This document shows positions 22,839-31,321 of a stretch of DNA of 64,000 nt, one piece after another. The stretch is from positions 1 through 64,000 of the forward strand of contig JAQGHQ010000575.1 in NCBI GenBank assembly GCA_028288765.1, given 5' to 3'. The notes below the pieces were generated by a model. That model was given only the letters and a program-made list of their open reading frames with translations. It did not search any database and was not told where the DNA came from. Every line of letters begins with the position of its first letter. The first letter of the stretch is position 1. Origin of the DNA: Gemmataceae bacterium (GTDB taxonomy: Bacteria; Planctomycetota; Planctomycetia; Gemmatales; Gemmataceae). Both the position numbers and the translations under genes were made by a program.

Positions 22839-23546
22839 TCAGGGCTCTACGAACTTCCCGGACTTTGGCTGATTGATTTGTTGATTCCTCCCGTGGATCG
22901 TCTTCCCGTCCTCGCTAATCTTTAACGTATCGACCCACTGGCCGCCCTTGGCGTTCTCATCTCGTCTACGATAGATCAGTGTGGTCGTGTCGAGAGACCA
23001 GGTCTGTTCTGGCTGACCGTTAACAGTACCATCTGACATGAATCTTATCTGGATCGTTTTATCTGGTGCATATGTATAGTCACAGACCGCAAGGACCCGG
23101 GGTTTGAGTAACTCTTGCTTTCCGGTGAGATATTCTTTGGCCCGGTCCACGTTCTTCGACTTCGTGTGAAACTCGATCGCCCGGTCGAAGTCCCGCTCCA
23201 CGGCGGCGCGTGCGGCCTTGACCGATTTTAGGTACTCCACCACCGCGGGACGCATCTGGCCGGACCAGGGTATTCGCCCGGATTTCTCGAACGCCACCTT
23301 CTCGGCTTCGGCCACCTCGATCATCTTTAGTCGTTCTTCCGCAGTCATCTTCACGGTGGGGAGAGCCTTCCCCACCCGGTCAAAAGCAGCAACGAGTTTC
23401 TCGTCGGTCTTCTTCATTGCAACCGCGTAGGCGTCCTTCGCCTTCGCGACTTGCGCCTCGATCTCGTCCGCAGGAGCCGCGGCAGCAGCGGTGCTGGAGA
23501 GAATCGAGGCGACAGCCATCAATTGATAGCGGAAAAGCAGCTTCAT
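22839..23546 (-). CDS. Secreted hypothetical protein
   Basis: About 235 residues. A signal peptide (MKLLFRYQLMAVASILSS, cleavage near AAAAAPA) is followed by a helical, lysine- and alanine-rich segment to about residue 150, then a C-terminal beta domain with WSLDTTTLIYRRRDEN. That last part resembles the small beta-barrel modules that planctomycete exported proteins attach to coiled-coil leaders. The ATG at 23544-23546 is preferred because it starts the signal peptide; upstream in-frame ATGs exist and no Shine-Dalgarno sequence decides. I do not recognise a family. Confidence 0.65.
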   Translation of the reverse strand: MKLLFRYQLMAVASILSSTAAAAAPADEIEAQVAKAKDAYAVAMKKTDEKLVAAFDRVGKALPTVKMTAEERLKMIEVAEAEKVAFEKSGRIPWSGQMRPAVVEYLKSVKAARAAVERDFDRAIEFHTKSKNVDRAKEYLTGKQELLKPRVLAVCDYTYAPDKTIQIRFMSDGTVNGQPEQTWSLDTTTLIYRRRDENAKGGQWVDTLKISEDGKTIHGRNQQINQPKSGKFVEP

Positions 23547-23745
23547 GAGGTTGCGCCTGTGAATCAGATAAAGCATACTGTCAACACTTTCTGGCATTTC
23601 GTTGTGCAATCAAGCGGGGATATCAAACTGCATGCGCCCACAATCGGCCACTCAACCAGTGTGAGTCGGACCGCGGAGCTGTGCCAGGACGGCCCCGCGG
23701 ACCTCATTGATCCGGGCCCGGATGGCGGGGTGAAGCTGGCCGAAC

Positions 23746-26643
23746 CTATGTTCCCCTCGGCACGCCCTGCAGCCAGGTCAACCGATACTCCGCCGTCAGC
23801 CCCAGCTCCTTGCGAACCTCATCCGCCAGCGTGGTACAGAGCTTCTGCCCGGCTTCGGCAGATACTCCAGGCCCGGGGCTGGCCGTGATTTCCACCATGG
23901 GCCGGAGGTCGAGAAAGTCCAGGGCCAGCGGCATCTCCACATCGCGCACCGTCACGAAGGAGGCCAGTGGGACCATCTGCCCCGTCGCGTTGCGGACCTT
24001 GAGCTTGCCGAGATTCGCGGCCCAGTCTCCCGAGCGGTCATGGGCCTGGACTTCGACCCGCAAGGTGCGGCCGAAGGCGTTCAAGTGCTTGACAGTCAGC
24101 GCGCCGGTGTAGACATCAATCGTGTTGAAGATATCCGCCAGGGCCACGCCCCGGGCCGCGGCGGTCTCACGATTGACGTCCAGGGTTCGCCCCGGCCGCG
24201 GCACGGAATCGGGATTCGCCCACACGTCGGTCAGCTTCTTGCTCTCCGCGAGCCGCCCGGCCAACTGGCTGGCCCACTCCCTCACCCGGGCCGCGTCGGG
24301 CCCGTCCAGCGCCAGGTCGAGGGGGTAGCCACAGCGCGGAAAGCACCCCGCCACCGAGAGATCACGCAACCGGGCGGTCACGTCCTCGACCGCGCCGAGC
24401 TTGGCGCGGATTGTCTGGATGATCTCCTTCCGGCCGGTCTTCCCAAGCTCCGCGGGACTCAACAGGACCAGTAAACAGGGGCGGCCCCCGAACAGGTCGA
24501 ACGGGTTCTCGGAGAGGGCCAGGACGTGCTGCACCCCGGGGATCTGACGCACCAGCGCGTCGCCCCGCTGCTGGACCTGAACGGTGCTCTCGGCCGCGCC
24601 GGCCGGCACGTCCAGGTCCAGCAGTAGATAGTCGGGATTGGCGGGCCGCTCGGGGGTTTCCAGGTTCGCGGTGAAGTCGAAGGTGACGTCGAGGTCGAGG
24701 CCCTCGGGCAGCCGGGCCCGGATCTCGGTCAGCAGCTCCCGAACGGCAGCACGCATCTTCCTCGGGGCGACTTCCCCGGTCATGTGAACGACCAGGGTCG
24801 CTACCGGCCTGCCGTCCAGGAACGCCTTGCTCCGCGACGGGCCCGCACCAAGTCCAGCGTTGGCAACGTCCCGCAGGCGGACTCGACCCTGGTCACCGGC
24901 CTTCACCACGAGGTCCATCAGCCTCTCCGGCCACACGTCCCCGTCTCGTTTTTCCTCCCGCAGCACACGGACCACGTCGAGGGTATTCAAGTTGCGGGCG
25001 GCCAGCCTGTCCGGGTCGAGCCGGATGCGCATGGCGTAGTCGCTCGTGCCGAGCAAGGCCACCTCGCTCACGCCGGCCAGGCGGGCCAGTTCGTCCCTCA
25101 TCCAGATGCTGGCGTAATTGCCGAGGTAGACGCTATCGCGCCTGCCATCCGGCGAGAACAGGTTGACGACCATCAGCGCTCCGGATGTCCCGCGCCTCAC
25201 AGTTATACCGGCGTCTTGCACCGCCGTGGGGACCTGCGGCAGGGCCAGGGCCACGCGGTTCTGAACCTGGACCTGGGCCCGCCACGCGTCAACACCCAGG
25301 CCGAAAGTGACGTCGAGGGCATACCTGCCGTCACTCGTGCAGCGCGAGCGCATGTACCGGATCTTCTCGAGGCCGCTCACCTGCCGTTCGATGGGGGAGC
25401 GGACGGAATCCGAGACGAGCTGGGCGCTGGCCCCGGCGTAGGTTGTCTCAACGAGGATTCCCGGGCCCGGCTGCCCCCGAGCGGATGGGGGCTCTTCGGG
25501 AGGCTGCGTGCCCTTCGGGGCCGGCATGTCGCCCCCCTCGGGCCGAACCACCATCCCCGGCCGCAGTGCCGCCAGACGCCCAAAGACCACGTGGTCGTCC
25601 GGCTTGAGCCCGTCGCTAATCACGCGCAGGCCGTCCGGCTGCAACGGGCCGACGGTGACGCGGCGATACCGTACCGTGTTGTCCGCGTCGAGGACGTAGA
25701 CGAATTTGAGTCCCTGGTCCGACGCGACGGCCCGATCGCTGATCAGCAAGACCTTGTGGGGCGCGCCAAGGGCCAGCCGGACCCGGACGAACATGCCGGG
25801 CGCGAGCAGTCCGTCCTTGTTGGCGAGGACGGTCCGAATGCGGATGGTGCCGGTTTCCGGGTCCACGCTGTTGGCGGCGAGGTCCAGCTCGCCGTGATGG
25901 GAGAAACCCTTTTCGACGCTCAGTCCGACGTCGACCGGCAGCTTACCGGCCTCGACCTTGCTGTCCCGCATCCATCGCCGCAGCCGGAGGAATGTTCGCT
26001 CGTCGATATCGAAGTAGACGTACATCGGGTCCTGGACGACGAGGGTCGCCAGGAGGGTCTGATCCTGTTGGACCAGGTTGCCCGGATCGACGAGGCGCCG
26101 GCCGATCTGGCCGCTGACGGGCGCGGTCACTTTGCAGAAACTCAGGTTGAGCTTGCAGACCTCGGCGCCGGCCTCGGCAGCCTTGACCCATGCGAGGGCC
26201 TCGTCCACCGCCGCCTGATCCTGATCGAGTTGCTGCTGGCTGACGCTGCCGCGCGCGGCTTTGGCGGCGGCCTGGTCGCGGGCCAGGGTGGCGTTCGCCA
26301 GCTTGAGCGTGGCCTTTTTGAGCTCCACCTGACTGAGTGCCTGGTCCAGCTGGGCCTGGTAGGGACGCGGGTCCAGTTCGAAGAGGACATCCCCTTCCTT
26401 GACCCGGTCTCCCTCCTTGAAAGACGTTTTTGTCAGGTAGCCCGTCACACGGGCCCGCAGGTTGACGAGCGTGGACGCCTCGGTCCGGCCGGTGAAGTCC
26501 TCGTGGTCAGTCACTTCTCGGGCCACCGGCCGGGCGACGGGGACCTTCGGGAGCTTGGCGGGCTCCTCGGCGGAGTGGACGGTCCCGCGGGCGGTGAGCA
26601 GCACGAAACACATCGGTCCGATGCGGCGAGTTCGAGAAATCAT
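23746..26643 (-). CDS. Fusion of RND periplasmic adaptor and RND porter loops, no transmembrane helices
   Basis: A 965-residue exported protein. Residues 1-25 look like a weak signal peptide. Residues 30-370 are a complete HlyD/AcrA-type adaptor with barrel-sandwich halves (VNLRARVTGYL, KVTAPVSGQIGR), a coiled coil at about 95-165 and later beta-barrel and membrane-proximal strands. Residues 397-660 correspond to the first periplasmic loop of an AcrB-like pump (for example QVQVQNRVALALPQVP, YAMRIRLDPD) and residues 671-962 to the second (FNTIDVYTGALTVKH, GQMVPLASFV). The pump's helices 1, 2-7 and 8-12 are all absent, joined by short linkers, and the docking hairpin of the first loop is shortened. 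Such a protein cannot use proton-motive force itself. It could be a soluble scaffold or a substrate-binding partner. The ATG start follows GAGG. Confidence 0.85.
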   Translation of the reverse strand: MISRTRRIGPMCFVLLTARGTVHSAEEPAKLPKVPVARPVAREVTDHEDFTGRTEASTLVNLRARVTGYLTKTSFKEGDRVKEGDVLFELDPRPYQAQLDQALSQVELKKATLKLANATLARDQAAAKAARGSVSQQQLDQDQAAVDEALAWVKAAEAGAEVCKLNLSFCKVTAPVSGQIGRRLVDPGNLVQQDQTLLATLVVQDPMYVYFDIDERTFLRLRRWMRDSKVEAGKLPVDVGLSVEKGFSHHGELDLAANSVDPETGTIRIRTVLANKDGLLAPGMFVRVRLALGAPHKVLLISDRAVASDQGLKFVYVLDADNTVRYRRVTVGPLQPDGLRVISDGLKPDDHVVFGRLAALRPGMVVRPEGGDMPAPKGTQPPEEPPSARGQPGPGILVETTYAGASAQLVSDSVRSPIERQVSGLEKIRYMRSRCTSDGRYALDVTFGLGVDAWRAQVQVQNRVALALPQVPTAVQDAGITVRRGTSGALMVVNLFSPDGRRDSVYLGNYASIWMRDELARLAGVSEVALLGTSDYAMRIRLDPDRLAARNLNTLDVVRVLREEKRDGDVWPERLMDLVVKAGDQGRVRLRDVANAGLGAGPSRSKAFLDGRPVATLVVHMTGEVAPRKMRAAVRELLTEIRARLPEGLDLDVTFDFTANLETPERPANPDYLLLDLDVPAGAAESTVQVQQRGDALVRQIPGVQHVLALSENPFDLFGGRPCLLVLLSPAELGKTGRKEIIQTIRAKLGAVEDVTARLRDLSVAGCFPRCGYPLDLALDGPDAARVREWASQLAGRLAESKKLTDVWANPDSVPRPGRTLDVNRETAAARGVALADIFNTIDVYTGALTVKHLNAFGRTLRVEVQAHDRSGDWAANLGKLKVRNATGQMVPLASFVTVRDVEMPLALDFLDLRPMVEITASPGPGVSAEAGQKLCTTLADEVRKELGLTAEYRLTWLQGVPRGT

Positions 26644-26763
26644 CACGGATCCTCGGGAGAGATCACGGGGAGCGGTTGACCGCTCGCACGAAAGTTGACC
26701 GGACTCGCGGCCTCGATTTTACTTCCTCAGTTACGGCAGCGGTTTCTTTTTTTCGCTCGGGTT

Positions 26764-26838
26764 TTGTAGGGTGGGTCGAGTCTTCGAGGCCCACCGGGTG
26801 CGAAGTGGTGGGCCTCGACGACTCGACCCACCCTACAA
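26764..26838. repeat. GTAGGGTGGG palindrome
   Basis: Near-perfect arms, TTGTAGGGTGGGTCGAGTC and onward from 26764 and the complement ending at 26838, enclose a loop of about 11 bases. It shares the GTAGGGTGGG end with the elements at 1926-2319 and 8251-8379 but has a different interior. It lies in the 419-base gap between the RND fusion and the flavin-reductase gene; otherwise that gap shows only a doubtful 29-codon ORF at 26868. Confidence 0.75.
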
Positions 26839-27062: not shown

Positions 27063-27668
27063 TCACGGCCGCTTCAGCTCGAACAGGTCCGACGTGTGGC
27101 ACCAGTAGTCGCCGCCGACCCGGGCGACGGTCCGGAGCTTCCGCGGGTCGATGCGCTTTTTGTCGTCGAGCACCTCGTCGGCGACGTGCATCACGAGGAT
27201 CTCGCCGATCACGATGTTCGCCGCGATCGGGCCGGTCCCGCACGGGATGATCTGCCGCACCCGGCACTCCATGCCCACCGGCGACTCGGCCACCCGCGGC
27301 GGGGCCACCTTCAGACTCGGCGCGGTGGTCAGGCCGGTCAGGTCGATCTCGCTCTCGTCGGAGGGAAGCTCGGCGCTCGAGAGGTTCACCTTCTCGGCGA
27401 GCGCGGCCGTGGCGGCGTTCAGGACGAACTCGCCGCGGGCTTCGAGGTTGATGAGGGTGTCTTTCTTCGTCCCGTCCCGGCGGAGTGAGGGGGAGAAGGC
27501 GACGACCGGCGGGTTCGCCCCGAAGGCGTTGAAGAAGCTGAACGGGGCGAGATTCACGACCCCGGCCGGGGAGAGGGTCGTGACCCAGGCGATCGGCCGG
27601 GGCGTCACGACCCCGGTGAGCATGTGGTAGACGTCGATCACATTCGCGGCGGACACGTCGATGAGCAC
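27063..27668 (-). CDS. Flavin reductase-like FMN-binding protein
   Basis: A 201-residue protein of the flavin-reductase-like split-barrel family, which binds FMN and often reduces flavin for a partner oxygenase. The N-terminal part reads TGVVTPRPIAWVTTLSPAG, then NLAPFSFFNAFGANPP, the standard FMN-site blocks. HVADEVLDDKKRIDPRKLRTVARVGGDYWCH closes the fold as usual. GTG at 27666-27668 lies two bases downstream of the hmgA stop codon, so it is the last gene of the homogentisate operon. Its role there is not established; it may be a general flavoprotein carried along. Confidence 0.82.
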   Translation of the reverse strand: MLIDVSAANVIDVYHMLTGVVTPRPIAWVTTLSPAGVVNLAPFSFFNAFGANPPVVAFSPSLRRDGTKKDTLINLEARGEFVLNAATAALAEKVNLSSAELPSDESEIDLTGLTTAPSLKVAPPRVAESPVGMECRVRQIIPCGTGPIAANIVIGEILVMHVADEVLDDKKRIDPRKLRTVARVGGDYWCHTSDLFELKRP

Positions 27669-27670
27669 GG

Positions 27671-28843
27671 TTACTCCAGCCACGAGAACGGGTAGGTCGG
27701 GTCGTCGAGGTCGAGGGCCTGTTTGGTGAGGAACAGCGGGCGGAAGGTGTCGACCATCACGGCCAGCTCGTCGGTCCGGGTCACGTCCTTGCTGGCGGCG
27801 ATCGTCCCCGGGTGCGGCCCGTGCGGGATGCCGTGCGGGTGCAACGTGAGCGACGCTTCCTCGACCCCCCGCCGGCTGCCGAACCGCCCCCGGACATAGT
27901 ACAGGACCTCGTCGCTCTCGACGTTGCTGTGCGCGTACGGGACCTTGATCGCGTCCGGATGGGTGTCGAGGGCCCGCGGGGCGAACGTGCAGACCACGAA
28001 CCCCGGGGCGTCGAACGTCTGGTGGATCGGGGGGGGCTGGTGGACGGTCCCGGTGATCGGCTCGAAGTCGTCGGCGTTGAAGGTGAACGGATAGACGCAC
28101 CCGTCCCACCCGACGGCGTCGAACGGGTGGTTTGCCAGGACGTACCGCGTGAGTCTCGCGCCGTCCTTGATGAGGACCGGCATTTCCTCTTCCCGGTCAA
28201 TCGTGATCAGTTCCGTCGGACCGTGGAGGTCCCGCTCGCCGAACGGCGCCCCGAGCCGGAACTGGCCGTCGGGGTTCAGATACCGTTGGGGAAACCCGAC
28301 GTTCCCCGTCGATTCGATGACGAGGAGATCGGCCGGCCCCGCAGCCGCGTCAAACTCCAGCCGGTACGTGGTGCAGCGGGGGATGACGACGTAGTCGAAC
28401 GGGCGGAACGGGAGCTGGCCGAACTGCGTACTCAGGGTGCCGGCCCCCTTGTGAACGAACTGGATTTCGTCCGCCACTGCGTTTTTGAACAGCTCGGCCT
28501 GTGGACCAGCTGGGCGGCACCGCCAAAGGGTCACGTCGTTGTTGGACAGCAGCGGGACCCGGCCGGTGACCGGGTCACCAGATGCCGGAAGGCTTCCGGA
28601 TTTCAGATGATGGTGGCGGAGGGCGGGTTGGTCGACCCGCTCGACCGGCCAGTTGCCGGCGGGCTCGACCTTCTTCACCCGGGTCGGCGGGCGGAGGTGG
28701 TAGACGATGGAGTACGCCCGCGAGAACCCCTGCGTGCTGACCACCTCTTCGTAGTAAATGCCCTCGTTGCGGTAGCCGGGCCGGGTGCGGTGGGCGGTGT
28801 GTCGTTTTTTTGGGAGGCTGCCGAGGGAGAGGTAACGCGGCAT
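27671..28843 (-). CDS. hmgA: Homogentisate 1,2-dioxygenase
   Basis: A cupin-fold, iron-dependent enzyme of 390 residues that opens the ring of homogentisate to give maleylacetoacetate. The signature TFDAPGFVVCTFAPR and the iron-site block YAHSNVESDEVLYYVRG (His and Glu ligands) are present, followed by the histidine-rich LHPHGIPHGPHPG that supplies the remaining ligand and base. Length and order match bacterial homogentisate dioxygenases. The start at ATG 28841-28843 gives MPRYLSLGSLPKKRHT, close to the family N terminus. It lies between an interrupted ORF and the flavin reductase in a minus-strand operon headed by hppD. Confidence 0.92.
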   Translation of the reverse strand: MPRYLSLGSLPKKRHTAHRTRPGYRNEGIYYEEVVSTQGFSRAYSIVYHLRPPTRVKKVEPAGNWPVERVDQPALRHHHLKSGSLPASGDPVTGRVPLLSNNDVTLWRCRPAGPQAELFKNAVADEIQFVHKGAGTLSTQFGQLPFRPFDYVVIPRCTTYRLEFDAAAGPADLLVIESTGNVGFPQRYLNPDGQFRLGAPFGERDLHGPTELITIDREEEMPVLIKDGARLTRYVLANHPFDAVGWDGCVYPFTFNADDFEPITGTVHQPPPIHQTFDAPGFVVCTFAPRALDTHPDAIKVPYAHSNVESDEVLYYVRGRFGSRRGVEEASLTLHPHGIPHGPHPGTIAASKDVTRTDELAVMVDTFRPLFLTKQALDLDDPTYPFSWLE

Positions 28844-28872
28844 GGGAGAGGCTCCGATCGAGATCCGGGTCG

Positions 28873-29253
28873 TCACGCCTTGTGCTGCACAAGGCACGCG
28901 GCGTGCCCGAGGACCTGCGGACCGTCTTTCAGCAGGGAGCACGTGGGCTGCCAGCACAGCTCGAGCCGCCGGGCCAGGAGCTCGTCCGCGGTCGGTTTGT
29001 GGGACCAGACGGCGACCGCCGTCAGCTCGCCGAATCAGGTCACGCCGAATACGAGCCAGCGGGCATCCGGAAGCGGCAAGAAGAGGTCGTAGCTGTACTC
29101 GTCTTGCTGGACCAGGTCGATCCCCGCGAGTGGAATGCCCGCGCCGGGTGCCCACCCGAGGATGCCTTCCAGGTTCCGGAGCTGCGCCACTCGGTCGCCG
29201 AGTACCCGGTCGGCGGCAGACACCGCCGCGAGCTGATCGTGGTAGGACGTCAT
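28873..29253 (-). pseudogene. Short ORF interrupted by in-frame TGA in the homogentisate operon
   Basis: The ATG at 29251-29253 overlaps the stop of the FAH gene (ATGA), as in a translationally coupled operon. The reading frame runs 72 codons to TGA at 29035-29037 (DARWLVFGVT, then stop). The same frame then continues without interruption for 53 more sense codons to TGA at 28873 (FGELTAVAVWSHKPT, then KDGPQVLGHAACLVQHKA), ending 29 bases before hmgA. Both halves look like ordinary protein. The simplest reading is a nonsense mutation in a gene of about 126 codons. Stop-codon readthrough or a sequencing error are alternatives. I do not recognise the family. Confidence 0.6.
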
Positions 29254-29963
29254 ACCGGTCGCTCCACGACGGGGTTTCGCAAGGTGCCGATCCGCTCGAT
29301 CGCCAGTTCGACCACGTCCCCGGGCTTCAGCCACCCGCCGACCGCCTCGGGCGTGAGTTCCAGGATGCAACCCGTCCCGACCGTTCCCGACCCGATCACG
29401 TCTCCCCGCCGCAGTTCCGTGTCCCGACTGGCGTGGGCGAGGATCTGCGGCCAGGTCCAGTACATGCTACCGGCGGCGCCGGCCGAATACTGTTTCCCGT
29501 TCACCCGGGCGGTCATTCCGAGGTGGAGACGGCCGTCGCGGTAGAAGCCCCGCAAGTCGTCGAACGGCACCAGGACCGGCCCGAGAGACGTGGCGAAGTC
29601 CTTGCTCTTACTTGGTCCGAGACCGACCGCCATCTCCGCCCGCTGGATGTCCCGGGCACTCCAGTCGTTCATGACGGTGAAGCCCGCGACGCAGTTCATG
29701 GCGGTGTCATCGGCCGGGAGGTCGCGGGCCGCGGTGCCGATCACACACGCCAGTTCCAGTTCGTAGTCGAGGGCCGTGCTGCCGTGTGGTGCCCAGACCG
29801 GGTCACCATCGCCGATCAAGGCGACCGGGTTCGAGAAGTAAAAGACCGGGATCTGATACCACTGCGGGACCATGTCCAGCCCGCGGTGCGCCCGGCACGT
29901 CTTGACGTGCTGCTCGAAGGCGTAGAAGTCTCTGAGACTCGCGACCGCGAAAGGGACGGGCAT
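29250..29963 (-). CDS. Fumarylacetoacetate hydrolase (FAH) family protein
   Basis: A 237-residue FAH-fold enzyme. The metal site is visible: the E-x-E pair in DYELELACVIG and an Asp in MNDWSARDIQR. The C-terminal blocks DTELRRGDVIGSGTVGTG and LKPGDVVELAIERIG are typical. The family includes fumarylacetoacetase and related hydratases. Its place in an operon with hppD and hmgA makes the last or a late step of tyrosine degradation likely. The chain lacks the usual N-terminal 50-60 residues; upstream sequence is a palindromic repeat, so the start may have been altered. The ATG at 29961-29963 is assumed. The stop overlaps the next ATG. Confidence 0.85.
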   Translation of the reverse strand: MPVPFAVASLRDFYAFEQHVKTCRAHRGLDMVPQWYQIPVFYFSNPVALIGDGDPVWAPHGSTALDYELELACVIGTAARDLPADDTAMNCVAGFTVMNDWSARDIQRAEMAVGLGPSKSKDFATSLGPVLVPFDDLRGFYRDGRLHLGMTARVNGKQYSAGAAGSMYWTWPQILAHASRDTELRRGDVIGSGTVGTGCILELTPEAVGGWLKPGDVVELAIERIGTLRNPVVERPV

Positions 29964-30071
29964 GGCGGCTACTCGAAGATTTCGGCGACGCGGCAACGGA
30001 GGCCGGGCAGATGATGTGGGCCGGCGATGAGATCAAATGGGTCATATCGCAACCACTCGACCCCACCCCGG

Positions 30072-30141
30072 CCCTCCCCGCAACCGGGGAGGGAGCCGGA
30101 CACTCGCCGGCCCCATTCTGGTCTCCCCCGGTTGCGGGGGG
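30072..30141. repeat. Paired hairpins between hppD and FAH genes
   Basis: CCCTCCCCG-caacc-GGGGAGGG at 30072-30093 is one hairpin. TCCCCCGG-ttg-CGGGGGGA at about 30123-30141 is another. The two are also mutually complementary across CCCCGCAACCGGGG, so they could form one longer stem instead. The element lies inside an otherwise tight operon and directly in front of the shortened FAH gene. Confidence 0.65.
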
Positions 30142-30214
30142 ATCAAGGGGAGTCGGCAAACGACTCCGCGACCGAGTGCTGTACGAACGGGGGATGTGTT
30201 TTCCTGCCCCACGT

Positions 30215-31321
30215 TCACAGTGTACCCCGACTTTCCTGTTCCCGCTCGATCGCCTCGAACAGCGCCTTGAAGTTCCCCTTCCCGAAGCTCTTCGACCCCT
30301 GCCGTTCGATGACCTCGAAGAACAGCGTCGGCCGGTCCTGGACCGGCTTGGTGAAGATCTGGAGCATGTATCCCTCGTCGTCCCGGTCCACGAGGATGCC
30401 CAGCTCGGCCAGCTCGTCGAGGTCCTCGTCGATCTTGCCCACCCGGGAGGGAAGCAGCTCGTAGTACGTCGCCGGCACCCGGAGGAAGGACACGTCGTTC
30501 GCCCGGAGGGCTTTCACAGTCGAGACGATGTCGTTCGTTGCCAGGGCAATGTGCTGGACACCCGCTCCGCCGTAGAAGTCGATGTACTCCTCGATCTGGC
30601 TCCGCCGCAGCCCTTTCGCCGGCTCGTTGATCGGGAACTTGATCCGCCCCCGCCCGCTCTGCACCACCTTCGACATCAGGGCTGAGTACTCGGTGCTGAT
30701 GTCCTTGTCGTCGAATGACACCAGCTGTTCGAACCCGAGTACCTTTCGGTAGAACCCGACCCACTCGTCCATCTTCCCTTCTTCGACATTCCCGACGATG
30801 TGGTCGATCCCGAGGAGGCCGGTCGGGTGGTACGTGCCGGGGCTGTACCGGGCCGGGTCGATCTCCTTGAACCCCGGGGCGAACGCCCCCTTGTAGTGAT
30901 CCCGATTCACGAACGTGTGGGTGGTGTCCCCGTAGGCCCGGATCGTCGCGGATTCGTAAACCCCGTGCTCGTCTTCGAGCCTCGTCGGGCCGACTACCCC
31001 CACCGCGCCCCGCTCGACGGCCAGGTTGTACGCGGTCCGGACGTCGTCCACCTGGAGGGCGATGTCCGAGACGCCGTCCCCGTGGAGCACGAGCCGCTGG
31101 ACGTCGGGGTGTTGCGGGTGGAGGGGGGAGACGAGGACGAACGTGATCCCGCCCTGCTTCAGGACGTACGCGGCCTCGTGCCGGACCTTCGTTTCGAGCC
31201 CGGCATAGGCGACCACGTCGAACCCGAACGCGTTCCGGTAGAAGAACGCACTCTGCCGAGCGTTCCCGACAAAAAATCGCACGTGGTCAATCTTGCGGAG
31301 GGGGATATCGGAGGTACCCAT
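30215..31321 (-). CDS. hppD: 4-hydroxyphenylpyruvate dioxygenase
   Basis: A 368-residue, two-domain VOC-fold oxygenase that turns 4-hydroxyphenylpyruvate into homogentisate using Fe(II) and O2. The three iron ligands can be placed: H174 in GIDHIVGNV, H257 in VQHIALATNDI and E336 in FFEVIERQG. NEPAKGLRRSQIEEYIDFY is the conserved substrate-domain block. FGKGNFKALFEAIEREQ is the C-terminal helix that gates the active site. It is the first gene of a minus-strand cluster leading to the FAH-family gene and hmgA. ATG at 31319-31321. Confidence 0.95.
   Translation of the reverse strand: MGTSDIPLRKIDHVRFFVGNARQSAFFYRNAFGFDVVAYAGLETKVRHEAAYVLKQGGITFVLVSPLHPQHPDVQRLVLHGDGVSDIALQVDDVRTAYNLAVERGAVGVVGPTRLEDEHGVYESATIRAYGDTTHTFVNRDHYKGAFAPGFKEIDPARYSPGTYHPTGLLGIDHIVGNVEEGKMDEWVGFYRKVLGFEQLVSFDDKDISTEYSALMSKVVQSGRGRIKFPINEPAKGLRRSQIEEYIDFYGGAGVQHIALATNDIVSTVKALRANDVSFLRVPATYYELLPSRVGKIDEDLDELAELGILVDRDDEGYMLQIFTKPVQDRPTLFFEVIERQGSKSFGKGNFKALFEAIEREQESRGTL

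Follow-up and report, generated by a model that had tools for sequence, protein, structure and literature searches.

RND pumps are understood as an alternating porter domain driven by a proton-driven membrane domain. A gene in the window (the whole 64,000-nucleotide stretch that was analyzed, from a Gemmataceae bacterium) raises the question of whether the porter domain can occur naturally without the membrane domain and, if so, what it could do there. We found that this gene encodes a natural, conserved, membrane-free RND porter that is joined in frame to a complete adaptor.

Layout of the fusion protein

The original prediction described a single 965-codon open frame at this locus. The frame was confirmed, albeit on the minus strand, where it runs from an ATG at 26643, with a GAGG 5' of it, to a stop at 23746 (965 amino acids); stops are present on the plus strand of 23746-26643. 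The list of open reading frames enters it with a GTG start and 966 codons (23746..26646, minus strand). From its N terminus, the protein consists of a weak signal-peptide-like start, a full adaptor, a 19-residue linker, the first periplasmic loop, a ~9-residue junction, and the second loop (Table 1). Matches to Pfam, NCBIfam, and PDB 7wlv bear out the predicted order of an adaptor followed by the first and second AcrB-type periplasmic loops.

Table 1. Features of the adaptor-porter fusion gene (window coordinates)
Feature	Position	Strand	Details and basis
Whole gene: adaptor-porter fusion without membrane domain	23746..26643	minus	965 codons from ATG; 966 from GTG at 26646
Ribosome-binding-like GAGG	26651..26654	minus	7 bases 5' of ATG; by eye
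N-terminal signal-peptide-like segment	26569..26643	minus	RTRR, then MCFVLLTARGTVHSA; by eye
Periplasmic adaptor, residues 35-375 (966 numbering)	25522..26544	minus	TIGR01730 35-369, HlyD_D23 58-287; alignment with 18 pump adaptors
Proline-rich linker between adaptor and porter, residues 376-394	25465..25521	minus	Least conserved part versus orthologue: 53% of 19 residues
Loop 1 (PN1-PN2-DN), residues 395-660	24667..25464	minus	~AcrB 41-331; Pfam, 7wlv, and profile alignments
Collapsed DN arm site	24925..24948	minus	8 residues where pumps have 31-33; alignment
Junction replacing TM2-TM7, residues 661-669	24640..24666	minus	Alignment
Loop 2 (PC1-PC2-DC), residues 670-962	23761..24639	minus	~AcrB 571-866; 7wlv and profile alignments

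The adaptor half scored above the family cut-offs for HlyD_D23 (PF16576; 53.7 bits versus a cut-off of 30 [Pfam]) and RND_mfp (TIGR01730; 266.5 versus 94.9 [NCBIfam]), and a Biotin_lipoyl_2 match (25.9 bits) fell below its 29.8 cut-off. By these matches, it is a complete HlyD/AcrA/MexE-type adaptor. While it is thus a full adaptor like those of RND pumps (MexE/AcrA type; TIGR01730 and PF16576), the window protein differs from them in running on in frame into a pump head, and no lipobox was seen by eye at its N terminus. The signal-peptide-like start, also read by eye, is weak, with an arginine inside its core; the corresponding segment is clearer (LGLTCFVLLAVGTVRSA) in an orthologue from genome G032. 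When the genes called at 22 fetched loci were compared with it, the best match was a pump adaptor from the same bacterial family (L026). In the hairpin of the window adaptor, the R and S of the R-L-S motif, which we take to be the channel-binding motif, are kept, whereas the leucine is an alanine and the spacing is longer by two residues; L026 shares this spacing.

Both large loops of an RND permease, with their PN/PC porter and DN/DC docking parts, are present in the second half of the protein. ACR_tran (PF00873) matched it in three stretches, the best of which aligned residues 395-567 with profile positions 41-212 of 1021 (E value, 1.9e-75 [Pfam]), and the NCBIfam RND permease models scored far under their full-length cut-offs (e.g., 286.5 versus 1250). 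Against PDB 7wlv, loop 1 matched residues 43-214 and, weakly (i-Evalue, 0.005), 249-334, while loop 2 matched residues 576-855. These pieces sit back to back in the window protein, whereas about 200 to 300 residues separate the loop matches in 22 full pumps. In the profile alignment, loop 1 stops at ~AcrB 331, loop 2 starts at ~571, and the C terminus falls where TM8 would come next. Given E values such as that for ACR_tran and an orthologue with the same layout, a chance match can be excluded.

The predicted loss of helices 1, 2-7, and 8-12 was supported both by the contiguity of the loop matches and by a hydropathy scan. No 19-residue stretch with a mean Kyte-Doolittle value of ≥1.6 was found in the window protein, consistent with the absence of TM1, TM2-7, and TM8-12, whereas the same test gave 11 to 14 such stretches in each of the 22 full pumps; the G032 orthologue has one, at residue 477, within loop 1. 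The proton relay of AcrB sits in TM4 (DD motif, D407/D408), and the motif DD[AS]I[VI][VL][VL]E was found in 21 of 22 pumps but in 0 of 14 membrane-free proteins (see below). Thus, relative to HAE-1 RND pumps (AcrB and MexB; PF00873), the window protein has both loops in order but neither the transmembrane helices nor the proton-relay motif. Since the 12 helices and the proton relay are defining features of an RND permease, the protein should not be filed as one. Lacking both the relay motif and the helices by which AcrB is driven, the protein, although built from RND parts, cannot pump via the known RND cycle.

The porter subdomains are unevenly conserved. With approximate subdomain limits, mean identity between the membrane-free proteins and the 22 pumps was 50% in PN1, 42% in both DN parts, 38% in PN2a, and 31% in DC, and it was 26% in PC2b, 23% in PN2b, 22% in PC1, and 15% in PC2a. 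PN1 identity among the membrane-free proteins themselves was 48%, and identity among pumps in the same subdomains was 43 to 64%. According to a review (PMC8277102), PN1 faces the inside of the trimer, where the central pore helices lie, and the substrate cleft and pocket are surrounded by PC1, PC2, and PN2. Taken together with this placement, the identities indicate that the trimer interior has been kept while the substrate-handling parts have changed, and since the substrate-pocket subdomains diverge most, the sequence lends no support to drug binding.

The docking hairpin of loop 1 is shortened, as had been predicted: the DN arm has 31 to 33 residues in 22/22 full pumps and 24 to 33 in the 12 unfused membrane-free proteins but is down to 8 in each of the two fused ones. 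Arm loss therefore occurs only together with adaptor fusion, in a sample that comprises two proteins related to each other. According to the same review, the DN loop reaches into the neighboring protomer and is essential to AcrB trimer assembly (PMC8277102). Because the fused proteins are the very two in which this loop is short, trimer formation by the window protein appears doubtful.

An orthologue and a family of membrane-free porters

The orthologue check proposed in the original prediction identified the same fusion in G032, a two-contig genome of another genus in the same family (C1:5301752-5304637, inside a 9.8-Mb contig). The G032 protein (964 amino acids) is 66% identical to the window protein and has the same fusion, linker, and junction; identity is 64 to 67% in the adaptor and in either loop. 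The dN/dS of the fused pair was 0.23/0.47 (NG86), not near 1, and full pumps, of which three pairs with 67 to 69% amino acid identity were taken from these genomes, gave 0.23/0.53, 0.26/0.62, and 0.25/0.54; in this comparison (NG86 and LWL85), dS is underestimated in GC-rich genes, equally for all pairs. Since the bias hits all pairs alike, the fused protein is constrained about as strongly as full pumps. The frames of all 14 related membrane-free loci were also free of stops.

These results bear on whether the gene is a degenerating, functionless remnant of pump and adaptor genes that were joined through deletions. Consistent with a remnant, it is a lone gene, the window and G032 have no common neighbors as judged by eye, and no close copy was found in the genus outside the window's genome (5 genomes; threshold, 1e-100). 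Since the whole-protein searches of the genus (6 genomes, including the window's) and of the family (95 genomes) used strict thresholds, what they show is limited to the rarity of close copies. The same-junction orthologue in another genus, the pump-like dN/dS, and the stop-free frames make a remnant very improbable, and the pseudogene reading was rejected. Less probable still, to the point of being negligible, is an assembly artifact fusing an adaptor gene with pump fragments: although the window's genome is a 615-contig draft, the same fusion lies well within one of the two G032 contigs, and misassembly was rejected as well. The 66% identical orthologue with the same junction, the pump-like constraint, and the open frames thus exclude decay and a misjoin, and together with the related membrane-free porters they uphold the earlier argument against random decay.

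A profile of the porter part gave contiguous matches without a membrane segment in the window's own genome (C551, 594 amino acids) and elsewhere in the family. Among the matches listed, another profile that spans the junction and loop 2 set membrane-free porters apart from full pumps: the former scored 219 to 412 bits with starts at columns 1 to 8, and the latter scored ≤207 bits with starts at column 15 or beyond. At least 14 membrane-free loci were found in 12 of the 95 genomes of the family, namely, two each in G000 and G011 and one each in G015, G016, G020, G024, G032, G038, G049, G057, G070, and G094. The window gene is therefore one member of a family, most of which lack an adaptor, a point that the original prediction missed. 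The profile match was single and contiguous in 13 of the 14 proteins (G049 has two overlapping stretches), whereas 22/22 pumps gave separated matches. When the porter parts of the 14 membrane-free proteins and the 22 full pumps were placed in a tree, the two groups fell on the two sides of one branch (support, 100/100); the tree, which is unrooted, holds six rows of unusual composition, and samples one pump type, fits one loss of the membrane domain. By eye, the 14 N termini are signal-peptide-like, lipobox-like, or a single anchor, assuming an upstream start for G015 and a downstream start for G057.

Outside the family, no membrane-free porter was seen in seven other genomes of the order or in a class sample of 297 genomes, and a phylum sample (392 genomes) gave no passing contiguous match other than that of the window's own genome (at 1e-112 and at 1e-57), all among the matches listed. 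The class and phylum searches scored 3 to 7 candidates per genome and list the best matches, so distant membrane-free porters elsewhere could be missed. A scan of genome contigs (12 loci; open frames of ≥150 amino acids) gave no membrane-free porter and 11 frames with the two loops as separate matches; L030 has loop 1 and a weak, separate start of loop 2, L032 is cut off within loop 1, and L033 and L038 gave no loop match.

Two members differ in detail. The second membrane-free porter of the window's genome (L021 4265-6049, G000:C551) has a lipobox-like N terminus by eye, and no adaptor was found within its 9.4-kb contig. In the G049 porter (L077 8997-10820), the DC docking subdomain contains a gap, and the N terminus carries two hydrophobic stretches that may be left over from TM1.

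Known counterparts

The closest counterpart is AcrBper (PDB 5en5 and 7b8r), which was engineered from E. coli AcrB by joining the two loops without the membrane helices. The family profile matched 58 of 60 listed solved chains in two stretches, and the two exceptions, with a single stretch each (4-574 and 6-574 of 577), are the AcrBper sequences. AcrBper is soluble and was crystallized with a DARPin as a drug-binding trimer (PMC8617272), which indicates that a pump head can fold without the membrane part. Unlike this man-made, adaptor-free protein, the window protein is natural and fused to an adaptor, its DN arm has collapsed, and its pocket subdomains have diverged. BstA, an RND-type sterol transporter, shares the RND superfamily with the window protein but was set aside as a counterpart, since it is, like HpnN, a predicted inner-membrane RND transporter (PMC10942540).

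No description of a natural membrane-free RND porter was found in searches of an open-access library. The original prediction, which named no described protein with this layout, overlooked that its porter half exists as engineered AcrBper. Judged by its alignments, the window protein is a newly seen variant assembled from RND parts, the porter half of which is the natural counterpart of AcrBper.

Gene neighborhoods and possible functions

Linkage to an adaptor varies across the 14 loci: the porter is fused in two (the window and G032), an adaptor gene lies directly upstream in three (G024, G057, and the second G011 locus, representing three genera), and no adaptor was found by tblastn with six adaptors in the fetched neighborhoods of the other nine, although in G070 a contig end lies 344 bases from the start of the gene. 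The three operon adaptors group in a separate clade (100/100) on a long branch, whereas the two fused adaptors fall among pump adaptors. The helical hairpin of the divergent clade is shorter than in most of the pump adaptors compared. These divergent adaptors, at L075 10660-11769, L076 7713-8933, and L078 10646-11836, pair with membrane-free porters. A single ancestral adaptor-porter pairing for the five linked cases was not favored (1% of 200 bootstrap trees), although the starred branches alone are compatible with it.

No full pump was called in the 14 porter neighborhoods (9 to 64 kb), and no OEP outer-membrane factor was found near any of the 14 loci among the matches listed; the one polytopic protein in these neighborhoods (L077:16729-18750) is cytochrome-biogenesis-like by eye. 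At the genome level, TolC-type factors (Pfam OEP) are encoded in 12/12 carriers, and the fetched contigs of the window's genome hold at least eight full pump genes of the same type. The suggested search for a full RND pump was thus negative for a nearby one and positive for co-occurring ones. The median number of full-pump matches was 8 in 12 carriers versus 3 in 83 noncarriers (P = 3.5e-5) and, in genomes of ≥7 Mb, 9 (n = 11) versus 3 (n = 17; P = 0.003), a comparison that is confounded with genome size, ignores kinship, and saturates because only 14 candidates were scored per genome.

Several other features of the window flank the fusion gene. Just downstream (22839-23609, minus strand) lies a gene for a 256-amino-acid protein without a Pfam match, the start of which looks signal-like by eye. 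Upstream, 419 bases away on the same strand, is a tyrosine-catabolism-like run (27063-31321) of dioxygenase (with a sub-cut-off HPPD N-terminal match), fumarylacetoacetate hydrolase, homogentisate dioxygenase-like, and flavin reductase genes; none was seen by eye next to the G032 orthologue. A palindromic repeat (26766-26836) lies between the fusion gene and the flavin-reductase-like gene. Its 17-base arm has 89 matches in the genome with ≤1 mismatch, many of them at contig ends, versus 0 for a reversed control, and exact copies occur in only three of 137 fetched loci, all three of which cover this very place.

As to function, we tentatively favor, as a possibility short of a probability, a secreted periplasmic adaptor-porter that has no energy source of its own and docks on outer-membrane channels or pump assemblies. 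The protein would be exported to the periplasm, where its adaptor half would join an adaptor ring on a TolC-type outer-membrane channel and the porter half beneath would serve as an unpowered vestibule for binding or metering small molecules; alternatively, the porter half may occupy and tune outer-membrane channels that full RND pumps of the cell also use. Given the loss of the DN arm, it is probably the adaptor half, and not interlocking of the AcrB type, that assembly relies on, and directional transport, if any, would draw its energy from elsewhere.

The adaptor-porter explanation is consistent with the two ways in which adaptors are linked, by fusion and by neighboring genes in three genera, with the distinct clade of the neighboring adaptors, and with a PN1 that remains close to pumps while PN2b, PC1, and PC2a do not. 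The OEP proteins of all carriers and their larger numbers of full-pump matches also fit, although the latter link is confounded with genome size, and AcrBper provides a soluble, drug-binding trimer as precedent (PMC8617272). Other observations argue against it: the nine loci without an adaptor in the fetched neighborhoods, the lack of an outer-membrane factor (among the matches listed) or a called full pump near any locus, the missing DN arm of the fused proteins, the divergent substrate-pocket subdomains, and the R-L-S motif with its alanine and longer spacing (the latter as in L026). In addition, the usual adaptor:pump ratio is 2:1, which a 1:1 fusion does not match. That the secreted head on its own covalent adaptor constitutes a channel-docking, membrane-free RND machine, passive or partner-powered and with no proton-driven domain, seems to us somewhat unlikely.

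The main rival, which we consider unlikely on balance, is a periplasmic ligand-binding or scavenging protein built from pump parts that acts as a monomer or small oligomer outside any tripartite channel and sequesters or senses hydrophobic compounds. The many relatives with no adaptor in view (9/14), the signal-peptide-like, lipobox-like, or anchor starts read by eye, and the loss of the interlocking arm in the fused pair would suit such a protein, as would the ability of the soluble AcrBper head to bind drugs (PMC8617272). An adaptor, however, would be of no obvious use to a scavenger, yet one is fused or adjacent at 5/14 loci, and it is PN1 in the trimer interior that is best conserved and the pocket subdomains that have diverged most.

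Somewhat less likely still is a modulator of full RND pumps, either a noncoupling subunit in their assemblies or a competitor for adaptors and channels, acting as a brake or specificity factor. The full pumps of the window's genome, the richness of carrier genomes in pump matches, and the pump-like PN1 point in this direction, and mixed trimers exist in the superfamily, as the review notes for MdtBC (PMC8277102). The lack of a called full pump in any of the 14 neighborhoods and the lost arm of the fused members argue against a modulator, and the pump-number link carries the limits given above (genome size, kinship, and saturation).

Whichever role applies, the existence of a natural, selected family of porter heads that lack the membrane domain, with adaptor fusions in two cases, suggests that cells have a use for the head by itself. 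The family opens a direct test of what a head contributes without energy, through ligand binding, trimer assembly, and channel docking. It also supplies natural soluble heads for structural work, for which AcrBper, the only case that we met, was engineered.
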